Shown here: positions 36,891 through 40,256 of the stretch, piece by piece | Position numbering within the stretch: the first letter of the stretch is position 1 | Layout of the letters: each line of letters opens with the position of its first letter | Assembly: GCF_003253995.1 (NCBI RefSeq) | Contig: NZ_QKZL01000006.1 | Coordinates: 1-64,000, forward strand | Reading direction: 5' to 3' | Length of the DNA: 64,000 nucleotides | Origin: Palleronia aestuarii | Lineage (GTDB): Bacteria > Pseudomonadota > Alphaproteobacteria > Rhodobacterales > Rhodobacteraceae | Notes under the pieces: model-generated | The model's input: the letters and a program-made list of their open reading frames with translations, nothing else | The model's database searches: none | Told to the model about the DNA's origin: nothing | Position numbers and translations under genes: made by a program

Positions 36891-36953
36891 CGCCCCGGGC
36901 GCGACCCGGGACCTCGCCGCTCCACGCGGCCCCGGCTCGGGGGCCGGGGCGCG
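36891..36953. repeat. Pair of REP-like palindromes
   Basis: GCCCCGGGCGCGACCCGGGACCTCGC (about 36891-36917, written in two parts: CGCCCCGGGCGCGACCC and GGGACCTCGC) resembles the 38609 repeat. A second palindrome, CCCCGGC ... GCCGGGG (about 36928-36950), follows in the opposite sense. They sit in the gap between hydA and the importer ATPase and may be read-through structures or a BIME-like unit. Confidence 0.55.
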
Positions 36954-37078: not shown

Positions 37079-38533
37079 TCACACCCCGCTCGCCGGGATC
37101 CCCGACCGTTCCACCGGTCGGGGGGCGGTCAGCGCCTTCCAGGACGACAGCGCCTGGTTCACGGAGCCCTTGGGAGGGCGGGGCACGAAGGTGCCGTGGC
37201 CCTCCTCCGCGCGGATCGCACCGTCGGAATAGGCGAGCTTGCCGCGCGAGAGCACGTGGCGCGGCAGGCCCTTCACGCGCTGGCCCTCGAACACGTTGTA
37301 ATCGATCGCAGATTGCTGGGTACCCGCGCTGATCGTCTTCTCCGCCTCGGGGTCGAACACGACGAGATCGGCATCCGCGCCCACGAGAACCGCGCCCTTG
37401 CGGGGATAGCAATTGAGGATCTTGGCGATGTTGGTGGAGGTCACGGCGACGAACTCGTTGGGCGTGAGCCGCCCCGTCGCGACCCCGTGGGTCCAGAGCA
37501 TCGGCAGCCGGTCCTCGAGCCCGCCGGTGCCGTTGGGGATCTTGGTGAAGTCGCCCACCCCCGTGCGCTTCTGCTCGGTCGTGAAGGCGCAGTGATCGGT
37601 CGCCACGACCGAGAGCGATCCCGCCTGCAGCCCGGCCCAGAGCGATGCCTGGTGCTGCCTGTTGCGGAAGGGCGGCGACATCACGCGCCGCGCGGCATGG
37701 TCCCAGTCCTGGTTGAAGTACTCGCTCTCGTCGAGCGTCAGGTGCTGGATCAGCGGCTCGCCCCAGACCCGCTTGCCCTGCTGGCGCGCGCGCCGGATCG
37801 CCTCGTGGCTCTCCTCGCAGGAGACGTGGACGACGTAGAGCGGCACGCCCGCCATGTCGGCGATCATGATGGCGCGGTTCGTGGCCTCCCCCTCGACCTG
37901 CGGCGGGCGGGAATAGGCGTGCCCCTCCGGCCCGGTATTGCCCTCCGCGAGGAGTTGCGCGGAAAGGTCGGCCACGACGTCGCCGTTCTCCGCATGGACG
38001 AGCGCGATGCCCCCGAGTTCCGAGAGCCGCTTGAACGACGCGTACATCTCGTCGTCCTGCACCATGAGCGCGCCCTTGTAGGCCATGAAGTGCTTGAAGG
38101 AATTGATCCCGCGGTCGCGGACCACCGCCTCCATCTCCTCGAAGACCTGCTCGCCCCACCAGGTCACGGCCATGTGGAAGGAATAGTCGCAATGCGCCCG
38201 CGTCGACTTGTTGTCCCACATCTTGAGCGCGTCGAGCAGCCCCTGTCCGGGGGAGGGGAGGGCGAAATCCACGACCATCGTGGTGCCCCCCGCGAGCGCC
38301 GCGCGGGTGCCGCTCTCGAAATCGTCGGCGGAATAGGTGCCCATGAAGGGCATCTCCAAATGCGTGTGCGGATCGATCCCGCCCGGCATGACGTAGCATC
38401 CCGTGGCGTCGATCTCCTCGTCGCCCCCGAGCCCCGGCCCGATCTCCGCGATCCTGTTGCCCTCCACGAGGATGTCGGCCTCGTAGGTGAGGTCGTGGGT
38501 GACGATCGTGCCGTTCTTGATCACGGTTGTCAT
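37079..38533 (-). CDS. hydA: Dihydropyrimidinase
   Basis: A 484-residue cyclic amidohydrolase opening dihydrouracil or dihydrothymine to the N-carbamoyl beta-amino acid, the second step of reductive pyrimidine degradation. The binuclear zinc ligands are present: H56 and H58 (GGIDPHTHLE), carboxylated K153 (FKHFMAYKG), H180 (VHAENGD), H236 (VVHVSCEES) and D313 (ATDHCAF). ATG 38533 is chosen because the conserved MTTVIKNGTIVTHDL begins there. It follows the GIY-YIG gene and the carbamoyl hydrolase gene in the same direction. Confidence 0.92.
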   Translation of the reverse strand: MTTVIKNGTIVTHDLTYEADILVEGNRIAEIGPGLGGDEEIDATGCYVMPGGIDPHTHLEMPFMGTYSADDFESGTRAALAGGTTMVVDFALPSPGQGLLDALKMWDNKSTRAHCDYSFHMAVTWWGEQVFEEMEAVVRDRGINSFKHFMAYKGALMVQDDEMYASFKRLSELGGIALVHAENGDVVADLSAQLLAEGNTGPEGHAYSRPPQVEGEATNRAIMIADMAGVPLYVVHVSCEESHEAIRRARQQGKRVWGEPLIQHLTLDESEYFNQDWDHAARRVMSPPFRNRQHQASLWAGLQAGSLSVVATDHCAFTTEQKRTGVGDFTKIPNGTGGLEDRLPMLWTHGVATGRLTPNEFVAVTSTNIAKILNCYPRKGAVLVGADADLVVFDPEAEKTISAGTQQSAIDYNVFEGQRVKGLPRHVLSRGKLAYSDGAIRAEEGHGTFVPRPPKGSVNQALSSWKALTAPRPVERSGIPASGV

Positions 38534-38564: not shown

Positions 38565-38583
38565 TCCCGGACAGGATCCGGGA
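38565..38583. repeat. REP-like palindrome TCCCGGA-N5-TCCGGGA
   Basis: A perfect 7-bp stem (38565-38571, 38577-38583) 32 bp upstream of the hydA start. It belongs to the same CCCGG-rich palindrome group as the 38609 and 38954 repeats but has a different stem. Confidence 0.6.
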
Positions 38584-38608: not shown

Positions 38609-38637
38609 GCCGCCCCGGGCTTGACCCGGGGCCTCGC
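38609..38637 (+). repeat. 29-bp inverted repeat, left copy (REP-like)
   Basis: Core CCCCGGG-CTTGA-CCCGGGG (38613-38631), flanked by GCCG and CCTCGC. Its reverse complement matches 38954-38982 in 28 of 29 positions. It lies 8 bp beyond the GIY-YIG stop. Confidence 0.85.
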
Positions 38638-38645
38638 GGGTCCGC

Positions 38646-38936
38646 TCACGCGTGCGGGATCTGCGCGCTCACGTCCTGCCAGTCCGGATTGCTTTCGGCG
38701 ATCAGATCGATCTTCCACGACCGCCGCCACCGCTTCATCCGCCGCTCCTGCGTCAGCGCCTCGGAATAGGTCTCGAACGCCGCGAACCAGACCAGCGTCC
38801 GGATGCCGTAGCGCTGCGTGTGGCCCGGGATCGCGCCGGAGCGATGCTGCTCCAACCGCCGGCGCAGATCGTTCGTCGAGCCGAGGTAGAGCGCACCGCC
38901 GGGGCGCGAGGCCAGCAGGTAGACGTAATGGGCCAT
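38646..38936 (-). CDS. Small GIY-YIG nuclease-domain protein
   Basis: A 96-residue single-domain protein. The start AHYVYLLASRPGGALYLGST is the GIY-YIG pair (YVYLL and YLGST). TNDLRRRLEQHRSGAIPGHT follows with the catalytic Arg. LVWFAAFETYSEALTQERRM contains the conserved Glu. KRWRRSWKIDLIAESNPDW is the usual tail of the UPF0213-like group. It stands between two pyrimidine-catabolism genes but has no obvious link to them. It is bounded by nearly perfect 29-bp inverted repeats, so the unit 38609-38982 may be a small mobile or REP-associated cassette. ATG 38936 follows GGAGCGAGGATGG. Confidence 0.85.
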   Translation of the reverse strand: MAHYVYLLASRPGGALYLGSTNDLRRRLEQHRSGAIPGHTQRYGIRTLVWFAAFETYSEALTQERRMKRWRRSWKIDLIAESNPDWQDVSAQIPHA

Positions 38937-38953
38937 CCTCGCTCCTCCGCCCG

Positions 38954-38982
38954 GCGAGGCCCCGGGTCGAGCCCGGGGCGGC
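38954..38982 (-). repeat. 29-bp inverted repeat, right copy (REP-like)
   Basis: Core CCCCGGG-TCGAG-CCCGGGG within 38954-38982, mirror image of the left copy with one mismatch. It lies 17 bp upstream of the GIY-YIG start and 20 bp past the carbamoyl hydrolase stop. Confidence 0.85.
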
Positions 38983-39002
38983 ATGGCGCGGGGAGGCGGC
39001 CC

Positions 39003-40256
39003 TCACCCCTCCACCCCGGCCGTCTCCACCACCGCGTGGAGGAGCACATCCGTTCCCGCCCGCGCCCAGTCCTTGGTGATCTCCTCCGCCTCGTTGTGCG
39101 AAAGACCCTCGACACAGGGGCACATGACCATCGCGGTCGGCGCCACGCGGTTGATCCAGCAGGCGTCGTGGCCCGCGCCCGAGACGATGTCCATGTGGCT
39201 GTAGCCGAGCCGCTCGGCCGCCCCGCGGACCGCCGCCACGCAGCCCTCGTCGAAGGTCACCGGGTCGAAATGCCCCGCCACCTCGATCTCGCAGCCAAGC
39301 CCCATCTCCTGCGCGATGCGCGGCGCGTCGGCCTCGAGCGCGGCCTTCATCCCGTCGAGCTTCTCGCGGTCGGGCGAGCGGAAATCGACGGTGAAGACCA
39401 CGCGGCCGGGGATCACGTTGCGCGAGTTGGGATAGACGTCGATATGGCCCGCGGCCCCCACCGCGTCGGGCTGCGCGGCCATCGCGATCTCGTTGACCCG
39501 CTCGAGGATCCGCGCCATGCCGAGGCCTGCGTCCCGCCGCATCGCCATCGGCGTCGAGCCGGTATGCGCGTCCCGCCCGGTCAGCGTCACCTGCAGCCAC
39601 CATTGCCCCTGGCCATGCGTGACCACGCCGATGTCGCGCCCCTCCGCCTCGAGGATCGGGCCCTGCTCGATATGGAGCTCGAAGCAGGCATGCATCTTGC
39701 GCGCGCCGACCTCCTCCTCGCCCTTCCAGCCGATCCGCTCCAGCTCCTCGCCGAAGCGCTTGCCGGCGGCGTCCGTGCGCTGGTAGGCCCAGTCGGTCTC
39801 GTATTGCCCGATGAACACGCCGGAGGAGAGCATCGCGGGCGCGAAGCGCGTCCCTTCCTCGTTGGTCCAGTTCACCACCACGATCGGATGGCGGGTCTTC
39901 ACGCCCAGGTCGTTGAGCGTGCGCACCACCTCGAGCCCGCCGAGGACGCCCAGCACCCCGTCGTACTTGCCCCCCGTGGGCTGCGTGTCGAGATGGGAGC
40001 CGACATAGACGGGCAGGGCGTCCGGATCCGTTCCCTCGCGCCGGGCGAACATGTTGCCCATCCGGTCGAGCCCCATCTCGCAGCCCGCCGCCTCGCACCA
40101 GCGCTGGAAGAGCGCGCGGCCCTCGGCATCCGCGTCGGTCAGCGTCTGGCGGTTGTTGCCGCCCGCCACGCCCGGGCCGATCTCGGCCATCTCCATCAGG
40201 CTCTGCCAGAGACGGTCGCCATCGACCCGCATGTTCTCGCCCGCTGCAGCGCTCAT
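39003..40256 (-). CDS. Zn-dependent N-carbamoyl hydrolase (beta-ureidopropionase / HyuC-AmaB type)
   Basis: A 417-residue M20-type amidohydrolase. Metal ligands: H88 (GSHLDTQPTGG), D99 (KYDG), E133/E134 (WTNEEG), the His in FELHIEQGP, and a C-terminal His in SGAGHDACW. It should cleave N-carbamoyl-beta-alanine or N-carbamoyl-beta-aminoisobutyrate, the third step after PreAT and HydA. ATG 40256 is chosen over an upstream frame start because the operator at 40279-40296 lies just before it. It is the first gene of the unit hydrolase-GIY-YIG-hydA. Confidence 0.9.
   Translation of the reverse strand: MSAAAGENMRVDGDRLWQSLMEMAEIGPGVAGGNNRQTLTDADAEGRALFQRWCEAAGCEMGLDRMGNMFARREGTDPDALPVYVGSHLDTQPTGGKYDGVLGVLGGLEVVRTLNDLGVKTRHPIVVVNWTNEEGTRFAPAMLSSGVFIGQYETDWAYQRTDAAGKRFGEELERIGWKGEEEVGARKMHACFELHIEQGPILEAEGRDIGVVTHGQGQWWLQVTLTGRDAHTGSTPMAMRRDAGLGMARILERVNEIAMAAQPDAVGAAGHIDVYPNSRNVIPGRVVFTVDFRSPDREKLDGMKAALEADAPRIAQEMGLGCEIEVAGHFDPVTFDEGCVAAVRGAAERLGYSHMDIVSGAGHDACWINRVAPTAMVMCPCVEGLSHNEAEEITKDWARAGTDVLLHAVVETAGVEG

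Follow-up and report, generated by a model that had tools for sequence, protein, structure and literature searches.

Organisation of the locus

The window, which is the whole stretch of 64,000 nt of Palleronia aestuarii DNA that was analysed (contig NZ_QKZL01000006.1, positions 1 to 64,000), carries a small GIY-YIG gene between two mirror-image, REP-like palindromes, and the whole unit of palindrome, gene and inverted palindrome spans 374 bp. Its setting is a pyrimidine/hydantoin degradation operon, where it lies between the hydA-type and hyuC-type genes. The features of the region are:

36891..36923, + strand: extra copy of the same palindrome family, 85% identity over 33 nt
37079..38533, − strand: context gene, dihydropyrimidinase/hydantoinase of the hydA type (TIGR02033)
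38565..38583, + strand: looser palindrome with a related stem and a different loop
38609..38637, + strand: REP-like palindrome at the gene's stop side, tail (CCTCG) facing the gene (sequence comparison)
38646..38936, − strand: predicted GIY-YIG nuclease gene, 96 codons, ATG at 38936 (PF01541, conserved residues, confident predicted fold)
38954..38982, − strand: inverted REP-like palindrome at the gene's start side, tail facing the gene, 28 of 29 positions as in its partner
39003..40256, − strand: context gene, hydantoinase/carbamoylase-family amidase of the hyuC type (TIGR01879 and NF006769)

The first-pass annotation had described the gene as framed by 29-bp palindromes, and this was confirmed by eye: 38609-38637 and the reverse complement of 38954-38982 are equal at 28 of 29 positions, with gaps to the gene of 8 nt at the stop side and 17 nt at the start side. 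The longer pair 38609-38640 and 38951-38982 is 94% complementary over 32 nt. Of the two further palindromes that it had listed, the one at 36891 is a real member of the family and the one at 38565 is present in the looser form. An in-frame ATG at 38984, beyond the outer palindrome, opens the longest ORF, which encodes 112 aa; the start at 38936 is favoured over it by the starts of the homologues.

The GIY-YIG protein

The protein matches PF01541 with 58.5 bits against a cut-off of 22.6, and the Pfam scan returned GIY-YIG only; no NCBIfam family matches it. Eleven positions are invariant in 85 aligned sequences, including Y17, R27, H31, E64 and N83, which we take to be among the catalytic positions of GIY-YIG enzymes, and Y6 is conserved in at least 90% of them. 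Both the domain score above the curated cut-off and the conserved residues place the protein in the GIY-YIG nuclease superfamily, and it is predicted to be a GIY-YIG nuclease. It is the product of the only solo GIY-YIG gene in the genome, the other match being found within a 626-aa frame that is presumably UvrC.

The predicted structure has a mean pLDDT of 93.9. A Foldseek comparison with solved folds placed a UPF0213 protein first (E 1.8e-5) and SLX1 second. A second structure aligner gave SLX1 as the top match (Z 7.5, 94 of 96 residues, rmsd 3.2), followed by UPF0213, I-TevI and UvrC domains; a Z below 8 is too low to settle kinship within the GIY-YIG fold. By sequence the closest solved structures are UPF0213 proteins, 1zg2 (3.2e-11) and 1ywl (4.5e-8). 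SLX1 is a nuclease that cuts branched DNA, to which REP hairpins and cruciforms also belong, and an SLX1-like predicted fold fits the cutting of structured palindromes, while falling short of proof.

The protein is under purifying selection, as judged from dN/dS ratios of 0.02-0.13 in seven of nine pairs, of which one includes a broken copy (L145) and another has a dS of more than 2; of the remaining two pairs, a distant one had a ratio of 0.48 and the other was saturated. Expression and regulation of two GIY-YIG genes, which may belong to this family or to another, have been reported in Caulobacter crescentus (PMC10688885). The homologue of Caulobacter segnis (L159) has no inverted flanks (score 9.5, on the scale given below).

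A defence role was dropped, as PADLOC returned no match. A phage origin was also dropped, since a tblastn search of 50,697 phage records gave no match and the PHROG match was only weak.

The palindrome family in the genome

When palindromic sites were scored on both strands, the window held five matches to the palindrome pattern; 100 shuffles averaged 0.17 matches and never reached five. Scored in the same way, the whole genome held 54 matches against three for a reversed control pattern (two mismatches allowed). With the strict pattern (the exact 17-nt palindrome form) there were 29 matches, and thirteen gene-free genus mates have 0-3 pattern matches each. The REPs that flank the gene are thus abundant in the host genome, as is the case for RAYT genes. 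A frequent tail of the family is CCTCGCGGG, and in both palindromes beside the gene the tail is turned to the gene. The genome also carries gene-free dimers in the same orientation as the unit, for example at C1:51196/51255 and C9:73864/73921, and two dimers in the opposite orientation, at C3:34225/34277 and C6:87242/87315.

Inverted flanks across homologues

Homologues were drawn from relatives, from class genomes and from a wide bacterial scan (the best 80 of at least 578 matches), and these searches reach the nearer part of the GIY-YIG family. Each match was given a flank score, which is the likeness of its left flank to the reverse complement of its right flank. A score of at least 14 was reached by 130 of 162 matches and by 6 of 838 shifted windows of equal shape from the same loci; the limit of 14, like the limit of five REPs used below, was picked after data inspection. 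The 162 include the window's own unit, and three of 165 distinct matches were excluded as their flanks were too short. They are not independent, as orthologues at one locus were counted, a few broken genes were counted twice or more (L051, L110, L144 and L145) and a few matches (L050, L053) belong to another GIY-YIG subfamily. The survey of homologues suggested in the first-pass annotation has therefore found them mostly flanked.

It could be argued that the REPs are ordinary terminator or mRNA-stabilising hairpins that surround the gene by chance, and REPs are indeed reported to lie chiefly downstream of coding regions (PMC3733652). In the same 111 loci, inverted flanks surround 89 of 118 GIY-YIG genes, compared with 19 of 1331 other genes and, among small ORFs, 9 of 234, which makes this explanation extremely improbable.

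Among the 32 matches under the limit, of which 17 were inspected for REPs, several have either a one-sided REP or a pair of REPs with unlike stems. In a set from multi-copy genomes, which overlaps the main set in part, 28 of 42 matches reached the limit. One 5.4-Mb genome (G428) has 11 GIY-YIG matches; ten were read, and five of these reached the limit, with five different palindromes. The inner edges of the arms are near the gene, at median distances of 25 and 17 nt from the edges of the domain and with both at 60 nt or less in 76 of 130 units, and arms were found again elsewhere in their own locus of about 20 kb in 11 of 59 loci, compared with 3 of 157 random pieces. In the Sinorhizobium meliloti unit (L282) both flanks carry a composite element, the 119-nt left copy of which occurs at at least 40 places in the record; it is reminiscent of the published RIME mosaics.

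A second GIY-YIG subfamily (L050, L053 and L212) has flanking palindromes of the TTCGACAAGCTCAGG type, and the palindrome association may extend past the subfamily of the window's gene. Across the sequences compared, the association is seen in many phyla and is no local oddity; the best 80 of at least 578 matches in the wide scan came from Alphaproteobacteria, Bacteroidetes and others.

Two side observations concern individual loci. In L053 (G047) the second-type domain lies in a 354-aa open frame with a long downstream part, which to our eye resembles an RNA methyltransferase, and a REP-like sequence lies between the two. In L030 (G016) there is a very long unbroken run of G about 90 nt from the match edge, which is possibly an assembly artefact.

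Arm plan and repeat class

The arms vary strongly between genomes, yet are mostly REP-type stem-loops, and the two arms of one unit usually have the same stem. The units share a common plan in which a GTC tag points outward and the tail faces the gene. In 93 of 130 units both arms carry GTC in their outer 18 nt, and in 2 of 130 both carry GTRG there. With the stricter GTCRY tag, the tag was outward only in 68 of the 130, inward only in 7, both in 14 and neither in 41. The Neisseria gonorrhoeae homologue sits among GTCATTCCC repeats with inward tags.

This plan recalls the CGTC-tagged REPs, which were described from five phyla, mainly Alphaproteobacteria (Di Nocera 2013, PMC3733652). These consist of the tag, a stem of 8-9 bp, a loop of 4-5 nt and tails that are mostly CCA, and occur mostly as dimers with the tags outside and with most spacers of 20-100 bp (PMC3733652). 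The tag, stem-loop, short tail and dimer plan fit many of the homologue flanks; the difference is that in the GIY-YIG units a nuclease gene replaces the dimer spacer. The REPs of the window itself form a GC-rich variant (stem without the AT start, degenerate tag, CCTC tail), and because of this the likeness holds for the homologues as a set and the class assignment of the window's REPs alone is not settled. Transposases were sought in the 2013 survey, and in the part of its text available to us only a few fortuitous neighbours are given and the repeats 'apparently lack a dedicated transposase' (PMC3733652). In Bradyrhizobium units such as L127 the arms hold the published Br-REP1 consensus.

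History of the unit

Within the window's family, 33 of 295 genomes have the GIY-YIG gene at E<=1e-10 to profile A1, a criterion that also admits some members of the second subfamily. The locus was read in 30 of the 33, and in 23 of these 30 the gene has hyuC and/or hydA no more than 1.5 kb away; G156, G262, G317 and a second copy each of G091 and G266 are not part of this count, and in 3 of the 23 one neighbour gene only was seen. The 23 genomes belong to different genera. The first-pass annotation also held that the unit interrupts the operon; it does sit between hydA- and hyuC-type genes, but the shared place argues against a recent interruption.

The empty hyuC-hydA sites that it had proposed to look for were found in four genus mates. 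The junction runs from hyuC directly to hydA in G011 and G013, in which hydA is 87-91% identical, and also in G006 and G012 (hydA 62% identical), so that both empty and occupied alleles of the junction exist. A homing endonuclease would cut the former and be copied into it. Other genus mates have different sequence upstream of hydA, and in two no hydA match was obtained. Upstream of hydA in unit-free relatives (L235-L254) there are often a few hundred bases with apparent small, unrelated ORFs, and the junction appears to be generally plastic.

One genus mate (G007, L240) carries, upstream of hydA, a decayed copy of the whole unit that is colinear with it and retains both REPs. This copy scored a similarity of 96, where 200 simple shuffles gave no more than 49.5; the gene part by itself scored 56.5, and the maximum of 300 shuffles was 35.5. 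Taken together, the site shared by 23 of 30 genomes, the empty junctions and this relic indicate that the unit at hyuC-hydA is old, mostly inherited and often lost.

Elsewhere the unit has changed places. Once places represented twice had been removed, 20 of 28 protein pairs at 80-90% identity have no homologous neighbour in common within 3 kb; the 20 pairs involve no more than 10 loci, of which eight are in Rhizobiales. All five pairs above 90% identity share a neighbour. The Rhizobium bangladeshense locus L090 holds a tandem duplicate of the whole REP-gene-REP unit at 2.2-3.3 kb, with proteins 94% identical. L145 is a syntenic copy of the L113 unit and is decaying, its nuclease frame being broken by a stop while both REPs are kept.

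Homology blocks of about 370-400 bp were considered as signs of recent movement and rejected, since the best pair (L113/L145) is the same locus with diverged spacers. Rhizobium plasmids compared as candidate empty sites have contexts that are unlike on both sides and gave no clean pair. At the loci compared, no nucleotide-level insertion, target-site duplication or clean occupied/empty pair was found.

Gene presence and REP abundance

At least five window-type palindromes (exact 17-nt form) were present in 25 of the 33 gene-positive genomes of the family and in 21 of the 262 gene-negative ones (p=4e-17, Fisher, kinship ignored). In the hyuC-hydA clade, 22 of 23 genomes have at least five. For a second REP type, counted in 289 class genomes, the same limit was reached by 27 of 98 genomes with the gene and by 8 of 191 without it (p=3e-8, Fisher, kinship ignored). 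At most 17 candidates were scored per genome in both the family and the class, and some gene-negative labels may be wrong; a recheck covered the 21 family exceptions and left out the 8 in the class. Of the eight gene-positive genomes with few palindromes of the window's type, four (G062, G091, G267 and G294) have another REP type at the unit read.

A looser gene search in the 21 REP-rich gene-negative family genomes found the gene in 0 of 21. No clear relic of the unit was seen upstream of hydA in the REP-rich gene-free genomes, with 18 of 20 fetched loci readable; two loci were at contig edges, including that of G152, which has the most REPs, and for two of the 21 genomes no hydA locus was obtained. 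The biggest relic-like excess, in G154, was 33.0, compared with a maximum of 27.5 over 60 shuffles. REPs can therefore persist without the gene.

Across genomes, REP similarity climbs with protein identity from 0.23 to 0.91, to which orthology at one locus contributes. Tested in 14 multi-copy genomes, cognate pairing gave a negative result: the similarity of REPs was 0.33 to the nearest homologue in another genome and 0.34 among paralogues of the same genome (p=0.80), with 142 of 154 kept by a length filter; the unfiltered set, which includes gene fragments with spurious matches, gave p=0.97.

These patterns bear on two further explanations. The first is that the nuclease is a domesticated repair enzyme, which trims or resolves REP cruciforms and hairpins at replication and so shields a chromosome rich in palindromes, and that the flanking REPs serve its own regulation or are relics. 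The SLX1-like fold, purifying selection, old syntenic position and co-occurrence with REPs would all be in keeping with such a role, but it leaves unexplained why the gene should lie between inverted REPs in 130 of 162 matches, and 21 of the 46 family genomes with at least five REPs do without the gene. We regard it as quite unlikely.

The second is that the REPs are older and independent hot spots, and that a homing-like nuclease gene inserts between the REPs of a dimer, its nuclease cutting REPs for that insertion but not spreading them. Co-occurrence of gene and REPs is equally expected from this explanation, the gene-bearing unit is indeed arranged like a dimer whose spacer holds the gene, REPs have been reported as insertion targets of IS elements (PMC1525189), and REP-rich gene-free genomes exist (the 21 of 262). 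It sits less well with the arms, which are usually of the same stem in one unit and differ from genome to genome, and with a single site kept in 23 genomes of different genera, unlike a scatter into many dimers. Insertion into existing REPs is unlikely on balance, and is nonetheless the main rival to a RAYT-like partnership, as it explains much of the same evidence; the partnership is the best reading and is ranked first.

Proposed mechanism

The best explanation of the 374-bp stretch, as far as its sequence and those of its homologues go, is that it is a REP-nuclease unit belonging to a widespread family. It is probable that the nuclease cuts structures formed by REPs and that host repair spreads them, the hyuC-hydA unit being an old one. 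This proposal is built on the flank association, the outward-tag geometry, the co-occurrence of gene and REPs and the purifying selection, each of which can be read directly from the sequences. The first-pass annotation had proposed, by analogy with RAYTs, a REP-associated nuclease that moves or maintains the palindromes; the association stands, and for the moving or maintaining we infer the following steps.

The nuclease would recognise the hairpin or cruciform formed by its own REPs and would nick near the base of the stem, and repair of the cut by the host would then copy or convert REP sequence. DNA cleavage by GIY-YIG enzymes is hydrolytic and passes through no covalent intermediate, so any joining would be left to the host. 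In this scheme the unit with the gene would represent the complete element, from which the REP dimers would derive as non-autonomous, gene-free forms.

The GIY-YIG family is probably the missing partner of a large REP class whose spread lacked an explanation. More tentatively, and with somewhat more doubt than confidence, the CGTC-type REPs could be the non-autonomous form of an undescribed class of mobile element, the sole protein of which is a GIY-YIG nuclease of about 96 aa. Such an element would encode neither a transposase nor a ligase; it would spread by structure-directed hairpin cutting followed by host repair, and its likeness to the RAYT/REPIN plan would be the result of independent evolution and convergence. 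A specific, widespread and conserved enzyme inside the dimer arrangement makes the question of the missing transposase testable in ordinary laboratory strains.

Comparison with known systems

No report of a link between GIY-YIG proteins and REPs was found in the open-licence literature; preprints were outside this scope, and an unseen report is possible. The plan of a partnership between an enzyme and REPs is already known, and the partnership described here appears to be new as regards its enzyme and its repeat class. Br-REP1/Br-REP2 of Bradyrhizobium have sequence in common with the L127-type arms, and the main text of the paper describing them, as available to us, has no word beginning nuclease, excinuclease or UvrC (PMC5082802).

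With the UPF0213 proteins 1zg2 and 1ywl, the closest solved proteins by sequence, the window's protein shares a stand-alone GIY-YIG domain, a similar size and the same fold. They are labelled hypothetical proteins in the PDB, and the comparison was made at the level of the proteins. The fold is also common to the GIY-YIG nucleases SLX1 and UvrC, which are host repair enzymes with extra domains or partners; to our knowledge, their genes are not bounded by repeats.

A close parallel is with RAYT genes. These are generally regarded as old, mostly vertically inherited and repeatedly lost, and the unit of the hyuC-hydA lineage is likewise old, vertical and often lost. In RAYT-REP units the gene lies between two inverted REPs whose relatives are dispersed (PMC2817692), and dimers are the common form of REP (PMC2817692, PMC3733652); the units described here have the same gene position, dispersed relatives and dimers as the RAYT-REP/REPIN system (PMC2817692, PMC3116915). 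They differ in the enzyme, which is a predicted GIY-YIG nuclease by Pfam and by fold and not an HUH tyrosine transposase (Transposase_17, IS200/IS605-type), and in the repeat, which has an outward GTC/CGTC tag and not a GTAG-type (GTRG) head. They also differ in their distribution, as RAYTs were described from gammaproteobacteria only in the part of that report available to us (PMC2817692), whereas these units are mainly found in Alphaproteobacteria, Bacteroidetes and others. If the partnership proposed here is true, two unrelated nucleases have independently become partners of bacterial palindromic repeats.
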